Made by a program: the position numbers and the translations under genes. Shown here piece by piece: positions 38,645 to 50,181 of a DNA stretch of 54,282 nt. Source of the stretch: a virus; the IMG/VR virus record IMGVR_UViG_3300034418_013100, positions 1-54,282 of that record; one strand, given 5' to 3'. Position 1 is the stretch's first letter, and each line of letters starts with the position of its first letter. A model generated the notes under the pieces. The model was not told where the DNA came from, did not search any database, and was given only the letters and a program-made list of their open reading frames with translations.

Positions 38645-39094
38645 ATGAGTAGAACAATGAACGGAGCAAGAGCAAAAGTTAGAGTTGGCGGTCAGATCGT
38701 TGGTCTTTTTGATTCTTGCCAGTATGGTGCTAATATTGGAACTGAGCCTATCCATTTGTTAGGTAGATATTCACCAGATGAAATTTCAATCACTAGTTAT
38801 GAAGCTGTTCAAGTGTCTTGTTCTGGGTTTAGAATTGTTGACCAAGGTGTTCATGTTCTTCCAGCAGCTCCAAAACTTCAAGACCTTTTAAATTTTGAAA
38901 ATGTTCAGCTTGAAGTTGAAGATAGGCAAACTGGTGCTAATATTATGATTGTTAAAAACTGTGTACCTTCAAATTGGGGTGAAGCTCAACAGGCAAAAGG
39001 CACTACAAGATTCAACATATCGTATATTGGAACTGTTTTGAGTGATGAGTCTGGAGATCAAGATGAAAGTGATGGGGCAACTTCACTTCCATAA
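38645..39094 (+). CDS. tail tube protein
   Basis: 149-residue beta-rich protein (ARAKVRVGGQIVGLFDSCQY, EPIHLLGRYSPDEISITSYE, ANIMIVKNCVPSNWGEAQQA) directly after the sheath, as in most myoviruses. AAGGAG precedes the ATG. Polymerises into the inner tube through which DNA passes. A strong terminator follows. Confidence 0.85.
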   Translation: MSRTMNGARAKVRVGGQIVGLFDSCQYGANIGTEPIHLLGRYSPDEISITSYEAVQVSCSGFRIVDQGVHVLPAAPKLQDLLNFENVQLEVEDRQTGANIMIVKNCVPSNWGEAQQAKGTTRFNISYIGTVLSDESGDQDESDGATSLP

Positions 39095-39118: not shown

Positions 39119-39149
39119 AAAAAAAGGGAACTTTTTGTTCCCTTTTTTT
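39119..39149. terminator. rho-independent terminator after the tail tube gene
   Basis: AAAAAAAGGGAAC (39119-39131), loop TTTTT, GTTCCCTTTTTTT (39137-39149). Perfect 13-bp stem ending in a T run. Confidence 0.92.
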
Positions 39150-39151
39150 GT

Positions 39152-39298
39152 TTTAAATGTCGCAGAATAAATAGCCCGGAAGTGATTGTAAAATATCCAA
39201 CGGAAAAAGCGCAAGCAGAAGGCGGTGTATTTAGCGAAAAATTCTTGGGGCATTCTAGGCCTTTATATAAAATATATGATTATGGACATAGAAAGTAA
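39152..39298 (+). pseudogene. C-terminal remnant of an EDxHD-type homing endonuclease
   Basis: The frame FKCRRINSPEVIVKYPTEKA, then QAEGGVFSEKFLGHSRPLYK and IYDYGHRK ending at TAA 39296-39298, matches the end of the endonuclease in the split terminase gene (FKCRKINDPDILNKYPTEKA, QAEGGVFSRKFLGHSRALYK, IYDYGHRKW). Only this C-terminal tail remains; the rest is absent. It sits between the tail tube terminator and the next promoter, so a related element once lay here or a fragment was copied from the terminase locus. Confidence 0.9.
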
Positions 39299-39327
39299 GA
39301 ACTTTAACTTGTTTTTTTTTATACATA

Positions 39328-43913: not shown

Positions 43914-45698
43914 ATGACTGTTAAAAAAGTAAAAACCCCAGCTAAAATGTATTGCTCAAGCCCAAATAGGCTTAAACAAATTACCTCTCAAACTATGGAT
44001 GAAATTGCCGAAATTGTAGGGTCTAGCTATGGGCCGGGTGGTAAAACAACACTTATTGAAAGCGAATATCCCGGTATTCCAAACAAGAATACCAAGGATG
44101 GCGTTACTATTTTCAGTTCTTTAGGTAGTGCTGATCCTTATAAGCACTTGATTATTGAACAAACTAGAGATGCTGCTAAAAGGACCGCCAACGAAGCTGG
44201 TGACGGTACAACTGCGACTACAATTATCTCTGCCACTATGGTAAAGTCTCTATTTAGATATTGTGAGGCTAATCCCAAAGAGTCACCTCAACGTGCCACT
44301 AGGGTTATGAATAAAATTGTTAAAAATCAACTTATTCCCAAGGTAAAAGATCAGTCAATTGAAATTAGTATAGACAATCAAGGCTTGCTAAAAAAAGTAG
44401 CTCAAGTATCTGCTAATGGTGATGAAGAAATGGCTGACGCTGTAATGGAAGCATTTGACAAAGTAGGTTTTGGAGAGTCTTCTCACGTTACTATTCAAGA
44501 ACTTTCAGGGCCAAGCGGTTATGAAGTAGAGCTTATTGAAGGACTGCCAATTGCTATTGGCTTTGAAGAGTCAATTGGCAAATTTCATACAGCATTTATT
44601 AACGACAAGGCCAATCAACGCTGTAAACTAGATAAACCGTTGTTTCTTTTGTTTGATGGTATTGTAAACGATCTTGTTTCTTTTTTGCCAATTATTGAAG
44701 AACTTGGACATAAGTTTGTAAATGAAGGAAACTCTGAGTTTAGCAATCTTGTTCTTGTTTCACACGGCTTTTCAGAAAATGTTTTGACAAATCTTGCGTT
44801 TAATTTTAGTAATCCTACAACATTAAATGTTGTACCAATGGCTACGCCAATGACTAATATTAAAAACTCTAGATTAGAATTTTTATACGACCTATCGGCC
44901 TTTACCGGAGCTAAAATATTTGACATGACTAATCAAGTAGCTAAAGCTACTATTGACGACCTTGGTAACGGAATGGATACGTTTGAGTATTATAGATTTA
45001 GAAGTACTGTAGTTGGTGAGCCAAGCGAACTGGATATCGAAGAAAGAGCAGATGAGCTTGAAACTCAACTTAAAAATGCTGCAAGTATTGCTGAAAAGCT
45101 TGATCTTGAAGAAAGACTTGGTAAGCTAACTAATGGTATTGCCAAACTTAAAATATACGGTGCATCTAACGGTGAGCTTAAAGAAAGACATGATAGATGT
45201 GAAGACGCTGTGTGTGCGGTAAGAAGTGCAATTGCTCACGGTGCGTTGCCGGGTGGTTGTAGAGTATTAACAAATTTAGTATTGTTTTTGGAAACTAGTT
45301 ACTCTGAAGATGATAGAGACTACAATCTTGTTCAACAGGTCTTAATTCCAAGTCTTATGGAACCACTAAGAAAACTTCTTGAAAATGCTGGGTACAATAA
45401 TGAAGAAATTGAAAAAACTATCATTGATTATTTTCAAAATCAAAAATATGTATATGATATTGAAAACATGGAGTTTGGCGACCCTGAAAAACTAGGAATT
45501 TTTGATGCTACTATGGCAGTAGTGCAAGCACTTGAAAACAGCGTATCTATTGCTAGTGTTATGGGTAATCTTGGTGGTATTGTTGCCAGCCCAAGAGATA
45601 GTCAGCTTGAACTTCAGGCATGGAAAGAGGAACAAGATTTTAGAAGGGCAACTGATCATGCTGATGAATTTATTAATGAAGCTAATTTGAGAGCGTAA
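43914..45698 (+). CDS. groEL-like: GroEL-like chaperonin
   Basis: Group I chaperonin equatorial motifs: SSYGPGGKTTLIE, NTKDGVTIF, NEAGDGTTATTII (residues 94-105) and, late in the chain, SAIAHGALPGGCRVL. The apical part is diverged and the total length (594) is somewhat longer than bacterial GroEL; the C-terminal GGM tail is absent. Phage-encoded GroEL proteins are known from some large phages and can fold virion proteins without a co-chaperonin. It starts a unit with the terminase and portal genes; its TAA overlaps the ATG of the terminase gene (TAATG). Confidence 0.88.
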   Translation: MTVKKVKTPAKMYCSSPNRLKQITSQTMDEIAEIVGSSYGPGGKTTLIESEYPGIPNKNTKDGVTIFSSLGSADPYKHLIIEQTRDAAKRTANEAGDGTTATTIISATMVKSLFRYCEANPKESPQRATRVMNKIVKNQLIPKVKDQSIEISIDNQGLLKKVAQVSANGDEEMADAVMEAFDKVGFGESSHVTIQELSGPSGYEVELIEGLPIAIGFEESIGKFHTAFINDKANQRCKLDKPLFLLFDGIVNDLVSFLPIIEELGHKFVNEGNSEFSNLVLVSHGFSENVLTNLAFNFSNPTTLNVVPMATPMTNIKNSRLEFLYDLSAFTGAKIFDMTNQVAKATIDDLGNGMDTFEYYRFRSTVVGEPSELDIEERADELETQLKNAASIAEKLDLEERLGKLTNGIAKLKIYGASNGELKERHDRCEDAVCAVRSAIAHGALPGGCRVLTNLVLFLETSYSEDDRDYNLVQQVLIPSLMEPLRKLLENAGYNNEEIEKTIIDYFQNQKYVYDIENMEFGDPEKLGIFDATMAVVQALENSVSIASVMGNLGGIVASPRDSQLELQAWKEEQDFRRATDHADEFINEANLRA

Positions 45699-47947
45699 TG
45701 TCAGAAGAAATAGAAAAGCTAAAAAACGAACTAGTTTTAAAGCCTTTGAATGGGCCAGAGGAACTTAGAAATTGGATGCATATCTTTTTAGATATTAAGT
45801 TTCCAATGGGTACTGTATATCCCGGCTCCACACATGGCCCGGTTGATGCCATGTGGCGCATCTATGAGTTGATGAAAACAGGTGATAGCAGGGATGTTCC
45901 ACAGGTATGTATGCTTGCATCCCGTGATTCTTATAAAACCTTATCTGCTGCGGCCATTGAAGTATTGTGTATGCTTCATTTTGAAATCTCTGTTGCTCAT
46001 GGTGCAGCGATTAAATCACAATCAGAAAAAGCAATCCAATACGTTAACTCGTTTTTTAGAAAACTATCGCCATATCTTGAAGCAAATGGCTGGCGAAAGC
46101 TGTCTGATAGTAAGGCAAAAATTGAATGGCTCACCAGCAAAGGTGATGCTATTTATTTAAGAATTGTTGTTGCTACGGTAGCCGGGATGAACTGTGTAAA
46201 AGGCAATACAAGTATAAAAACTAACAAAGGTAATTTATCTGCTAGTACAATATATAAAAGACTAAAAAATGGTGAAGATTTTCTGTTCTGGTCCCATAAT
46301 CACAATAAAAAATATGAAGAATATAAACCTGTTATCTGTACGCAAAAAAATAAACATAAAAAAATTATAAAAATTACTACATCTAACGGTATATTGGAGT
46401 GTTCTCTTGATCACAAAATATATATTAAAGGCAGGGGATATGTAAAAGCTAAAGATATAAAAGTTGGAGAAAAAGCTTTTCGTAAAAATAGAGATGCTAG
46501 TAGTGCGCTTGGTTTTGAAAAAGCCAAAGAGTTTATAGAAAAAAAAGGGTATAAACTAAAAACAACAAAAGACAAGTATAAAAACACTAATACTATACTA
46601 GAGATGACCTGCAAGGATGGTCATTTAAAAAAGTGTTCGTTTAACGAGTTTAAAAACAAAAAAAGAAGAGGGTGTTTAGCCTGTAAGTCTATCTCTTTTG
46701 AAAAAATCAAGGCTTTTTTTGAGTCTAAGAAATATAGGGTTAATATCGAAAAAGAGAGCTATAAAAATACCAAGCAAAAAATACAAACAATATGCGATAA
46801 CGGTCATGAGTATAGTGTTAGCTATCATGATTTTAAACATAAAAATGCTAGGTGTAGCCAAGGTGATTGCCACAAAAAAAGACATGATACAAATTTTGTT
46901 GTAAAATATATTCAAGAACAAGGTTATAAAACAGATTTAAAACAATACAAAAACCAATATGAGCCAATAAGCGTAATATGTCCAAATGACCACAAAACAA
47001 TGATTATGTTTAGTAATTTTTACAACCATGGAAAAAGATGCAAACATTGTTATAGACCTTATTCAAAAGCACACCAAGAAATTGTTGGGTATATAAAAAC
47101 TATTTATAAGGGAAAAATAGAAATTAACAATAGAGATATTATTCATCCATTAGAGATTGATATTTATATTCCAGAGTTTAAATTTGGAGTAGAATTCGAC
47201 GGTCTTTATTGGCACAGTGAAAAAGTAAAGAAAAATGCTAAAAAAATAAATATAGAAAAGGCTTGTAAAATAAATCAAAAAAACATAAATATACTAGCTA
47301 TATTTGAAGATGAGTGGAGTGATCCTTTAAAACAAGAACTGGTCAAATCTATGATCAAAAGTAGACTGGGTATTTATGATAAAAAAATGAGGGCATCAAA
47401 GTTAGAAATAAAAAAAATTAACAAGAATATAGGGTTTAAATCTTTTTTTGATAAATACCATCTAGACGGCCATGTACAAGCAAGTTTCGCATATGGCCTA
47501 TTTGATGGGGATGAACTTGTTTCATGTATGTCTTTTAGGGTTCCCTTCAATAACAAAAACTACTGGGAAATAGCAAGATTTGCGACTAAATCAGGCCTTA
47601 AAATATATGGAAATGCTAGTAAAATAATCAAGTGTTTTATAAAAGAATATAATAAAAAATTGATCACATACAGCAATAACAGATTGAGCCTTGGAAATAC
47701 TTATCAAAAATTAGGGTTTAAAGAAATTACTCAAACAACAGAGCCTAGCTATTATTATACCGATTTCCAAAAAAGATTGTGGCGATTTAAGTGTAGAAAA
47801 ATAAATGACCCGGATATACTAAACAAATATCCTACAGAAAAAGCACAAGCAGAAGGAGGCGTGTTTAGTAGAAAGTTTCTGGGGCATTCAAGAGCTTTGT
47901 ATAAAATATATGATTACGGACACCGGAAGTGGAGTTTGGAATGTTAG
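45698..47947 (+). CDS. large terminase N-terminal part fused to split-intein N half and EDxHD endonuclease, 749 aa
   Basis: Residues 1-165: terminase ATPase start, with SRDSYKT (residues 75-81) as an atypical Walker A. Cys166 begins the intein N half (CVKGNTSIKTNKGN, block B GILECSLDHKIYI). From about residue 270 come three related zinc-type repeats (CLACKS, CSQGDC, CKHCYR), then a Vsr-like nuclease: PLEIDIYIPEFKFGVEFDG with YWH (Glu486, Asp488, Glu499, Asp501, His506). It ends GHSRALYKIYDYGHRKWSLEC at TAG. The N part of terminase must be joined in trans to the product of the next gene. Confidence 0.85.
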   Translation: MSEEIEKLKNELVLKPLNGPEELRNWMHIFLDIKFPMGTVYPGSTHGPVDAMWRIYELMKTGDSRDVPQVCMLASRDSYKTLSAAAIEVLCMLHFEISVAHGAAIKSQSEKAIQYVNSFFRKLSPYLEANGWRKLSDSKAKIEWLTSKGDAIYLRIVVATVAGMNCVKGNTSIKTNKGNLSASTIYKRLKNGEDFLFWSHNHNKKYEEYKPVICTQKNKHKKIIKITTSNGILECSLDHKIYIKGRGYVKAKDIKVGEKAFRKNRDASSALGFEKAKEFIEKKGYKLKTTKDKYKNTNTILEMTCKDGHLKKCSFNEFKNKKRRGCLACKSISFEKIKAFFESKKYRVNIEKESYKNTKQKIQTICDNGHEYSVSYHDFKHKNARCSQGDCHKKRHDTNFVVKYIQEQGYKTDLKQYKNQYEPISVICPNDHKTMIMFSNFYNHGKRCKHCYRPYSKAHQEIVGYIKTIYKGKIEINNRDIIHPLEIDIYIPEFKFGVEFDGLYWHSEKVKKNAKKINIEKACKINQKNINILAIFEDEWSDPLKQELVKSMIKSRLGIYDKKMRASKLEIKKINKNIGFKSFFDKYHLDGHVQASFAYGLFDGDELVSCMSFRVPFNNKNYWEIARFATKSGLKIYGNASKIIKCFIKEYNKKLITYSNNRLSLGNTYQKLGFKEITQTTEPSYYYTDFQKRLWRFKCRKINDPDILNKYPTEKAQAEGGVFSRKFLGHSRALYKIYDYGHRKWSLEC

Positions 47948-48063
47948 AAGAAATAGAGATTTTAAAAATAGAAGAAATAGAAACTTCTCAGTCTTTTACT
48001 ACTTATGACTTTGAAGTTGAAGGAAATCACAATTATTTTGCTAATGGTATATTAACCCATAAT
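46193..48063 (+). mobile_element. split intein spanning two genes, with internal Vsr-like homing endonuclease
   Basis: Intein N half starts at Cys (46193); intein C half is residues 1-41 of the next ORF, ending FANGILTHN before Ser. The reading frames of the two genes differ; the stop (47945-47947) overlaps the ATG (47941) of the C part, which has GGAG 6 nt upstream. This is the split site typical of natural split inteins with canonical lengths (about 100 and 41 residues). The endonuclease belongs to the EDxHD family first linked to fractured genes with split inteins. Confidence 0.85.
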
Positions 48064-49404
48064 TCGGAACATGTTCCAATGCTGTTTATGGATGAGATAG
48101 ATGTTGTTCAAGACCCAAGAGCATTGGAAGAAGCAAAAATGATTCCGTGTGTTTATAAAGGGTATTTTCCGCTAACCGTCTATCTTTCCACTCGTAAGTA
48201 TGCCGGTGGATTAATGGAGAAAACACTTAAAGATACAGAACGATCTGGTGGAGAAATTTTACGTTGGAACATTATTGATGTGACTGAACGTATTCCAGAA
48301 TCAGAGGCCAAAAAAAATAAAGAAAAAGTAACAAGATATGTTGGTAGGGAGCTTCCATTAAGAAATTTATCTCCTGAAGAGTTTGAAGAACTTAATGAAG
48401 AATCAAGACATAAATATGAAGCGGTAAAAGTTTATTCGGGAATTGCTGACCATCCGATGTTATCGGTTATGAAAAACTCTCTTGTAGACCGACCGCAAGA
48501 TGATGTAGGCGATCTTTATAAACCTATCTATGCGGTTCACAATAACTTTAAACAAACCTCGCCTGAAATGGGTGAGGCACAGTTATTGTGTAACAAGCCA
48601 AGCTCTAGCGGTCTTGTTTACCCTAGATTTGATATTGTTGATAATGCTATTAGTATTGATGAAGCTTGGAAATATTTGTCAGGTGAAAAAGTTGAGGGCA
48701 AGACCCTAGATGAATTAGTTCAATTTATGCACAATCTTGGAATTGAATTTTATGGTGCTGCCGATTGGGGAAATACTGACGAAACTTCTTTGGGTGTATT
48801 TGCCAAAATAGCTGGTGGAAAATCATGGCTTGTTGATATTACTTCAGCTCCAGACATGGAAATACCTGAAATTGTTCAAAAAGTAAAAGAGCTTACGGAA
48901 ATATATAGGGTTAACAAATGGTTTTGTGACTCGAACTATCCAGCATATATTAAAATGCTTAGAAAAACAAAAACATCCCAAGGTAAAATTCCGGCAATAG
49001 GCGTTAAAAAAGGTGTGGAATCTGTTGTGGATGGTATTACTGTTGTTCAATCTAAAATTGTAGATGCAAACAATAATAGACATTTTAAGGTACTAAAAAC
49101 ACGTAATAATGAACGTGTTTTTGATGCTTTTGAGACTTATAAATGGAAACTTGATGGTAAGGGAAATCCTATTGATGGTAAGCCAGAGCATGGTAAAGAT
49201 GGAACTGCTGATATTATGGATATGATTAGATACTTTTTTTATAGTATGTTTGGTAAAGGCTCTAAAGTTTTGTTCAGTTATGATCTTGAAAATATTAAAG
49301 GAAGACCTAGAGATTTGCAAAACAAAATCAATGACTTAACAGGCGGTCAAAAACATAAGTCAAGGAAATCACAGGAAAAAAAGAGTATTTTTTTTGATGT
49401 ATAA
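47941..49404 (+). CDS. split-intein C half plus large terminase C-terminal part, 487 aa
   Basis: Residues 1-41 (MLEEIEILKIEEIETSQSFT, then EGNHNYFANGILTHN) form the intein C half. From Ser42 the terminase resumes with Walker B VPMLFMDEIDVV (Asp51, Glu52). The nuclease domain contains FYGAADWGNTDETSLG (Asp275), KWFCDSNYPAY and GTADIMDMIRYFF. Trans-splicing would give a 611-residue large terminase, the packaging motor and headful nuclease. GTG 47929 is an alternative start; ATG 47941 has the better ribosome site. Confidence 0.87.
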   Translation: MLEEIEILKIEEIETSQSFTTYDFEVEGNHNYFANGILTHNSEHVPMLFMDEIDVVQDPRALEEAKMIPCVYKGYFPLTVYLSTRKYAGGLMEKTLKDTERSGGEILRWNIIDVTERIPESEAKKNKEKVTRYVGRELPLRNLSPEEFEELNEESRHKYEAVKVYSGIADHPMLSVMKNSLVDRPQDDVGDLYKPIYAVHNNFKQTSPEMGEAQLLCNKPSSSGLVYPRFDIVDNAISIDEAWKYLSGEKVEGKTLDELVQFMHNLGIEFYGAADWGNTDETSLGVFAKIAGGKSWLVDITSAPDMEIPEIVQKVKELTEIYRVNKWFCDSNYPAYIKMLRKTKTSQGKIPAIGVKKGVESVVDGITVVQSKIVDANNNRHFKVLKTRNNERVFDAFETYKWKLDGKGNPIDGKPEHGKDGTADIMDMIRYFFYSMFGKGSKVLFSYDLENIKGRPRDLQNKINDLTGGQKHKSRKSQEKKSIFFDV

Positions 49405-49407
49405 TAA

Positions 49408-49423
49408 TAATCTTTAATAATAT
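49408..49423 (+). promoter_or_regulatory. putative late promoter TAATCTTTAATAATAT
   Basis: TAATCTTTA directly after the terminase stop, followed by AAAGGTAG and ATG at 49441. It would give separate late expression of the portal unit. Confidence 0.6.
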
Positions 49424-49440
49424 ACAAAGGTAGATTAATA

Positions 49441-50181
49441 ATGTCCAGAATGAATTTATTGCTAGATTTAAGAGGTTATGATGGTGAAAATACAAACACC
49501 GCCAACACAACTTTTAATAGAAACCTTCAATATATTGGGGTAAATTTAGATGATGAATTAATACAAGAAGCAACAATAAAAGCTAACTCTAGAAGACTTT
49601 TGCTGTCCTCTTCTTTAGTTAGCGGATTTCAAAACAGTGCCGAATATCCTGCGACCCCAATTCCTGCTCAAGAAACGCTGACTTTAACCACTAACGATGA
49701 TCTTGATTATATTTATATACCAAAAAAAATAGTGCCAAATACTTTAATGTTGTCCATTGGAAGATTAATGGCTTTTGCAGGGCAAGATTTTGATGTTCAA
49801 GTAGAAGATAATAGAACAAAAATTACTTGGAAAAACTCTTTGGCTCAAGGCGGTGTTGAAAGCCTTGAGCACGGTGATATTATAAATTTTTCTTATAATT
49901 ACATAAATTCAGCTTCTTCTGATTCTGTAGATTTTTTAAATTCAGGGCTTTTTATTCCATCAGAAGAAAGCAATATAGATTTTTTTAAATTTGTTTATAT
50001 TGAAGCAGATAAAAAATGCGATGTTGCAATTAATGGTATTGTGCAAACTACAATTAATCCATTTTTAATTAATGGAGTAATGAAAAATGGTTTTTTTCTA
50101 AAAACCACCCAAATAAACGATGTTATAATTATAAATAAAAATGATGATCCTGTAAATGTTTATTTTATTGCAGGGAAATAG
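49441..50181 (+). CDS. virion structural protein, 246 aa
   Basis: Beta-rich protein (LTLTTNDDLDYIYIPKKIVP, TKITWKNSLAQGGVESLEHG, FFLKTTQINDVIIINKND) with a helical start. Located between the terminase and portal genes. It may be a head protein; no family recognised. Confidence 0.6.
   Translation: MSRMNLLLDLRGYDGENTNTANTTFNRNLQYIGVNLDDELIQEATIKANSRRLLLSSSLVSGFQNSAEYPATPIPAQETLTLTTNDDLDYIYIPKKIVPNTLMLSIGRLMAFAGQDFDVQVEDNRTKITWKNSLAQGGVESLEHGDIINFSYNYINSASSDSVDFLNSGLFIPSEESNIDFFKFVYIEADKKCDVAINGIVQTTINPFLINGVMKNGFFLKTTQINDVIIINKNDDPVNVYFIAGK

Follow-up and report, generated by a model that had tools for sequence, protein, structure and literature searches.

Organisation of the terminase locus

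The viral DNA analysed here, IMG/VR record IMGVR_UViG_3300034418_013100, was treated as a single stretch of 54,282 nucleotides (nt; positions 1 to 54,282, called the window). Its gene for the large terminase subunit (terL) is divided over two overlapping open reading frames (ORFs), each of which contains one half of a split intein. ORF1 (45698–47947) encodes 749 amino acids in a single frame: residues 1–165 of the terminase, which close with ...VAGMN, a 100-residue amino-terminal intein half (IntN) opening at Cys166, and a 484-residue endonuclease, through which the frame runs uninterrupted up to a TAG stop codon (47945–47947). ORF2 (47941–49404) has its ATG (47941–47943) within the final codons of ORF1, in a different frame. 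It encodes a 41-residue carboxy-terminal intein half (IntC, MLEEIEIL...GILTHN), after which come Ser+1 (at 48064) and the remainder of the terminase, with the Walker B motif MLFMDEID; the terminase part of ORF2 totals 446 residues. Read upstream, the ORF2 frame meets a TGA at 47911, which leaves just 34 nt open in both frames, and no -1 slippery heptamer is present within them. The insert as a whole (46193–48063) measures 1871 nt, which is not a multiple of three. The features are:

45698–46192, + strand: N-extein, residues 1–165 of the terminase large subunit with the Walker A region; 98.8% amino acid identity to residues 1–165 of the uninterrupted terminase of an empty-site sibling contig (L005)
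46193–46492, + strand: IntN, 100 amino acids, with Cys1 and block B SLDH; similar to NrdJ-1 (PDB), 64% amino acid identity to IntN of a diverged relative (L275)
46493–47944, + strand: Hef/EDxHD endonuclease in frame with IntN, with Cys-rich CapR-like repeats, EDxHD nuclease and a domain modelled as GNAT/Mom-like; from PHROG 559/3339, PDB entry 3r3p, alignment with free-standing Hefs and a fold model
47931–47934, + strand: Shine-Dalgarno-like GGAG, 6 nt 5' of the ORF2 ATG; from the sequence
47941–47947, + strand: ATGTTAG, overlap of the ORF2 start with the ORF1 stop, frames differing; from the sequence, with out-of-frame overlapping junctions likewise in the relatives L275 and L283
47941–48063, + strand: IntC, 41 amino acids with a His-Asn end; from Pfam Intein_splicing and alignment with IntC of the Aes508 and CP21 split DNA polymerases
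48064–49404, + strand: C-extein, terminase residues 166–611, with the Ser start, Walker B, the nuclease domain and the stop; 99.3% amino acid identity to the L005 terminase, a weak Terminase_6C match and PHROG terminases
48064–48084, + strand: likely co-converted 3' flank, with seven synonymous differences from the empty allele, common to all near-identical carriers (7/21 against 6/1317 nt, Fisher p 1e-10)
39143–39304, + strand: remnant of another Hef from this clade, its carboxy-terminal 54 amino acids, 76% identical to ORF1 residues 694–747

The residues of a class 1 intein are present: Cys1 (Cys166), block B SLDH with its histidine, the terminal His-Asn (of THN) and Ser+1. As in natural split inteins, the halves are encoded by separate ORFs, here in different frames, and the split lies at the endonuclease position. 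In the PDB, the split intein NrdJ-1 is similar to IntN (E 3e-5), and Pfam Intein_splicing matches IntC residues 5–41 (E 4e-5, under the curated cut-off). Our own hidden Markov models (HMMs), which include window sequences, score IntN at 1.5e-32, IntC at 2e-21 and the endonuclease at 6e-112. The exteins, of 165 and 446 residues, add up to 611 amino acids, the same length as the L005 terminase. Because there is no continuous frame and no frameshift signal, and all splicing residues are present, we infer that the terminase is made by trans-splicing of the two ORF products. The charges of the intein halves, +10 and -6, are compatible with electrostatic association. A preliminary description of this DNA had placed a split intein in terL between the Walker A and Walker B parts, on two ORFs in different frames, the second with a ribosome site and an overlapping ATG of its own; every one of these elements was found in its place.

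A group I intron carrying an endonuclease gene was rejected, as Rfam gave no match at E<=1 in 45000–50000 and protein splicing motifs are present at both ends. A programmed -1 frameshift was rejected for want of a slippery site.

Directly 5' of terL (window 43914–45698, +) is a divergent GroEL-like chaperonin gene (Cpn60_TCP1, E 8.5e-37). The start regions of ORF1 (45684–45730) and ORF2 (47927–47973) are 72% alike over 47 nt, with the ATGs in register; the peptides are MSEEIEKLKNE and MLEEIEILKIEE, respectively. This likeness is perhaps due to chance, perhaps to a copied translation start.

The endonuclease and its fusion to IntN

The ORF1 enzyme matches the PHROG endonuclease families 559 and 3339 (to 9e-77) and, by profile, PDB entry 3r3p (I-Bth0305I, E 1.7e-7). 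The invariant E, D, E, W and H residues are kept across the aligned Hef homologs, so the Vsr-like, EDxHD assignment made in the preliminary description holds. CapR-like repeats precede the nuclease in EDxHD relatives, as they do here (PMC12350094). The carboxy-terminus of the enzyme coincides with that of free-standing Hefs, which identifies the ORF1 stop as the enzyme's own; on this ground, the reading as a contiguous intein disrupted by frameshifting was rejected. No in-frame ATG, GTG or TTG is present between residues 233 and 303, and residue 303 is already inside the first Cys repeat. The whole enzyme therefore has no start of its own and is translated as a fusion to the N half, as had been proposed earlier. 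In L275 an ATG is located exactly at the amino-terminus of the enzyme (residue 274); the corresponding window codon is CTT. The ATG suggests that the endonuclease was once free-standing, with a start that the window has lost; the window enzyme is obligately fused, that of L275 perhaps not.

The carboxy-terminal Hef domain (47360–47944) was modelled as GNAT-like, with Mom of phage Mu, a DNA-modification enzyme, as the best Foldseek match (8bv8, E 4e-5); the comparison with the Mom profile is weak (hhalign probability 23%). A literature search found no paper linking Hef, GNAT and Vsr or Mom. An apparent alignment of Campylobacter Hef15 into IntN was discarded, the amino-terminus of Hef15 consisting of Cys repeats only, with no intein.

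To place the fusion among other split inteins, loci were sampled via IntC (80 viral) and via the endonuclease (80 viral and 79 genomic), best hits only, and classed with the HMMs. At the 35 split loci outside the window lineage, the IntN ORF ends 2–29 amino acids past the intein, and Hef is fused to IntN in none of them (0/35). The 79 genome loci likewise contain no IntN-Hef fusion. The 523-residue IntN tail of L129 was not counted as one, since the same ORF has a second IntN further on. The classic three-ORF form is present in Aeromonas phage Aes508, Campylobacter phage CP21 and contigs L103 and L033. Because the sample comprises best hits only, the IntN-endonuclease fusion is described here as apparently rare; we found no description of one and do not claim that it is unique.

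Relatives of the enzyme occur in other forms in related phages. The same Hef clade is free-standing immediately 5' of an empty terL in L032/L278, after the portal gene in L276, and, whole, in L279–L281, 3' of a homolog of window gene 38645–39094. It is at the last of these three places that the window retains the decayed remnant listed above, directly after a terminator-like hairpin. Plausibly, a Hef beside terL would have entered a terL intein, then lost its start and become fused to IntN.

Carriers, empty sites and apparent mobility

The identical arrangement, break included, is found in three further IMG/VR contigs (L003/L013, L004/L015 and L011/L014), one of which may represent the same population as the window, because it is almost identical to it over the shared length. 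Two diverged relatives were retrieved with a profile of the endonuclease clade: L275 and L283, with endonucleases 63% and 56% identical to that of the window, respectively. In L275, the amino-terminal terminase part, IntN and Hef form one 752-residue ORF, the end of which is overlapped by an out-of-frame IntC start; the contig stops 70 nt further. L283 starts inside Hef, and the carboxy-terminus of its Hef overlaps the IntC-TerL ORF in a different frame. Each gives part of the arrangement, since L275 stops after the IntC start and L283 is without the upstream part. L283 has a Hef-IntC frame relation other than that of the window and L275, and in all three the two are out of frame. The frame break is not an artefact: assembly or frameshift error was rejected because the break recurs in several contigs and out-of-frame junctions recur in diverged phages. 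Synonymous sites are saturated between the window and L275 (pS ~0.77), and the ratio of non-synonymous to synonymous differences (pN/pS) is 0.33 for the amino-terminal terminase part, 0.32 for IntN, 0.47 for the Cys-repeat region and 0.30 for the nuclease region. The break looks kept rather than decayed.

In the 99% identical sibling L005 the site is empty and the terminase continuous, with 611 residues. In L006, the terminase protein of which is about 82–85% identical, the same terL site contains a contiguous, one-ORF LAGLIDADG intein. As this intein is only distantly related to that of the window, more than one invasion of the site is probable. The GroEL-like phage chaperonin gene of L006 (3705–6446, +) also holds an intein, inserted at GDG/TTATT; it has a Pro first, and W, C and T at class 3 intein positions.

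Comparison of the window with L015 reveals 5 differences in the 1871 nt of the insert and 60 in 1833 nt of terL flanks (p 1e-13), while the flanks adjoining the insert are identical. Near-identical inserts within diverged flanks point to recent homing. The first 21 nt 3' of the insert contain seven differences from L005, common to all near-identical carriers, and the next 1317 nt contain six; such a pattern would be expected from homing with short co-conversion. No TerL relatives were found among bacterial and archaeal genomes, which leaves no clue to the host.

Proposed mechanism and comparison with known systems

We consider it probable, from the arrangement and its distribution, that the insert is a mobile split intein in terL, with trans-splicing yielding the terminase and the IntN-endonuclease driving homing. 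Seated between Walker A and Walker B, the intein would be expressed from ORF1 as a single protein of TerL-N, IntN and endonuclease, and from ORF2 as IntC with TerL-C; translation of the latter would begin at the overlapping ATG, either through re-initiation or with the aid of the ORF2 GGAG. Once associated, the two halves would trans-splice to give the 611-residue terminase, the IntN-endonuclease staying bound to IntC. As precursor or as the excised product, the endonuclease would cut the intein-less terL of co-infecting phages, and repair would copy the insert with short flanks into the cut gene. The anatomy of the locus, the conservation of its arrangement, the empty site and the signature of recent spread are direct observations. 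Splicing and cutting are predicted, as is the form of the enzyme that cuts. The preliminary description had the precursor act as a homing enzyme "until splicing"; this does not follow, because splicing would neither free the endonuclease nor remove it from IntN. Excised IntN would stay covalently joined to the enzyme, with IntC bound, and precursor and excised IntN-endonuclease could both cut.

Some observations weigh against this scheme. L275 and L283 are contig-end fragments, and both halves are complete in neither. Ordinary inter-phage recombination, rather than endonuclease-driven homing, could be behind part of the carrier homology. The charge of the halves did not discriminate split from contiguous inteins in the present sample (p 0.10).

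Among other explanations, an unlikely one is a standard fractured gene, in which internal initiation or proteolysis would supply the endonuclease as a free-standing enzyme and the IntN fusion would be incidental. The known split loci of Aes508, CP21 and L103, with a separate endonuclease ORF between the halves, and the in-frame ATG kept by L275 at residue 274 would fit such a gene. However, the window has CTT at that codon, the next in-frame ATG (residue 303) is inside the first Cys repeat and without a useful Shine-Dalgarno, and the L275 ATG likewise has no clear one. Far less probable is a contiguous, full-length intein that splices in cis, the two frames being joined by programmed frameshifting. 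IntN, endonuclease and IntC are ordered as in a full-length intein, and in the relative L006 a contiguous intein occupies this site; but the 34-nt overlap lacks a slippery heptamer, ORF1 ends at the natural Hef end, ORF2 is equipped with its own GGAG and ATG, and the frame relation in L283 is unlike that in the window and L275. Just as improbable is a dead element, its frame break due either to faulty assembly or to a mutation that recently inactivated the insert. The insert is known from metagenomic contigs only, without a cultured phage, which leaves room for this; yet several contigs share the break, diverged relatives have out-of-frame junctions, pN/pS is well under 1, and the terminase, at which the splicing residues are all intact, is encoded by an essential gene.

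Among related phages, this one terL site is found in several states: empty (L005 and others), contiguous with LAGLIDADG (L006), split with a fused Hef (the window, L275 and, in part, L283), and empty with a free-standing Hef related to that of the window directly 5' (L032/L278). The transition from contiguous to split inteins is an open question; a common view is that inteins are broken up when an endonuclease gene invades them. With several states at one site, the order of events is therefore testable. An intein with 484 nuclease residues on IntN is also a system that may reveal whether endonuclease activity and trans-splicing influence each other.

Three configurations of natural inteins are distinguished in a review: full-length, mini and split (PMC7765530). 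The window arrangement mixes the full-length and split ones. That IntN-endonuclease with IntC forms a stable fourth configuration, the homing enzyme being obligately the tail of the N-precursor, is a tentative proposal which we regard as possible rather than likely. If true, the supply of IntC from the coupled ORF would set the share of endonuclease present as precursor or as excised complex, and homing would be linked to terminase maturation.

Split phage inteins with EDxHD endonucleases are already known, in terminases too; what appears to be new is that the N-half carries the endonuclease as a fusion, together with the several-state terL site. Dassa et al. reportedly described fractured genes with split inteins in 2009. 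The window resembles those of the Aes508 and CP21 DNA polymerases in its overlapping ORFs, but in those genes a separate ORF encodes the endonuclease and IntN ends at a stop of its own, whereas in the window the endonuclease is in frame with IntN and no free-standing endonuclease ORF is present between the halves. The inteins AceL-TerL and GOS-TerL also interrupt large terminase subunits of phages and are naturally split (PMC11766414). Their split is atypical, with a very short IntN of 25–37 amino acids; the window has an IntN of about 100 and an IntC of 41. Contig L105 (2442–7427) contains an AceL-TerL-like split terminase intein with an IntN of about 30 amino acids and a long IntC; between its halves lie a separate ORF for Hef and one more ORF. 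Like the Hefs and I-Bth0305I, the window enzyme has the invariant E, D, E, W and H, and its nuclease and carboxy-terminal domains are 30–63% identical to those of Hefs; they, however, are free-standing or intron-borne and unattached to an intein half. Full-length LAGLIDADG inteins (L006 terL and the terL region of Gordonia phage Clown) have the same order of IntN, endonuclease and IntC, and that of L006 has the same insertion site with an endonuclease of a different family, but both are one continuous ORF and splice in cis, while the window has two ORFs.
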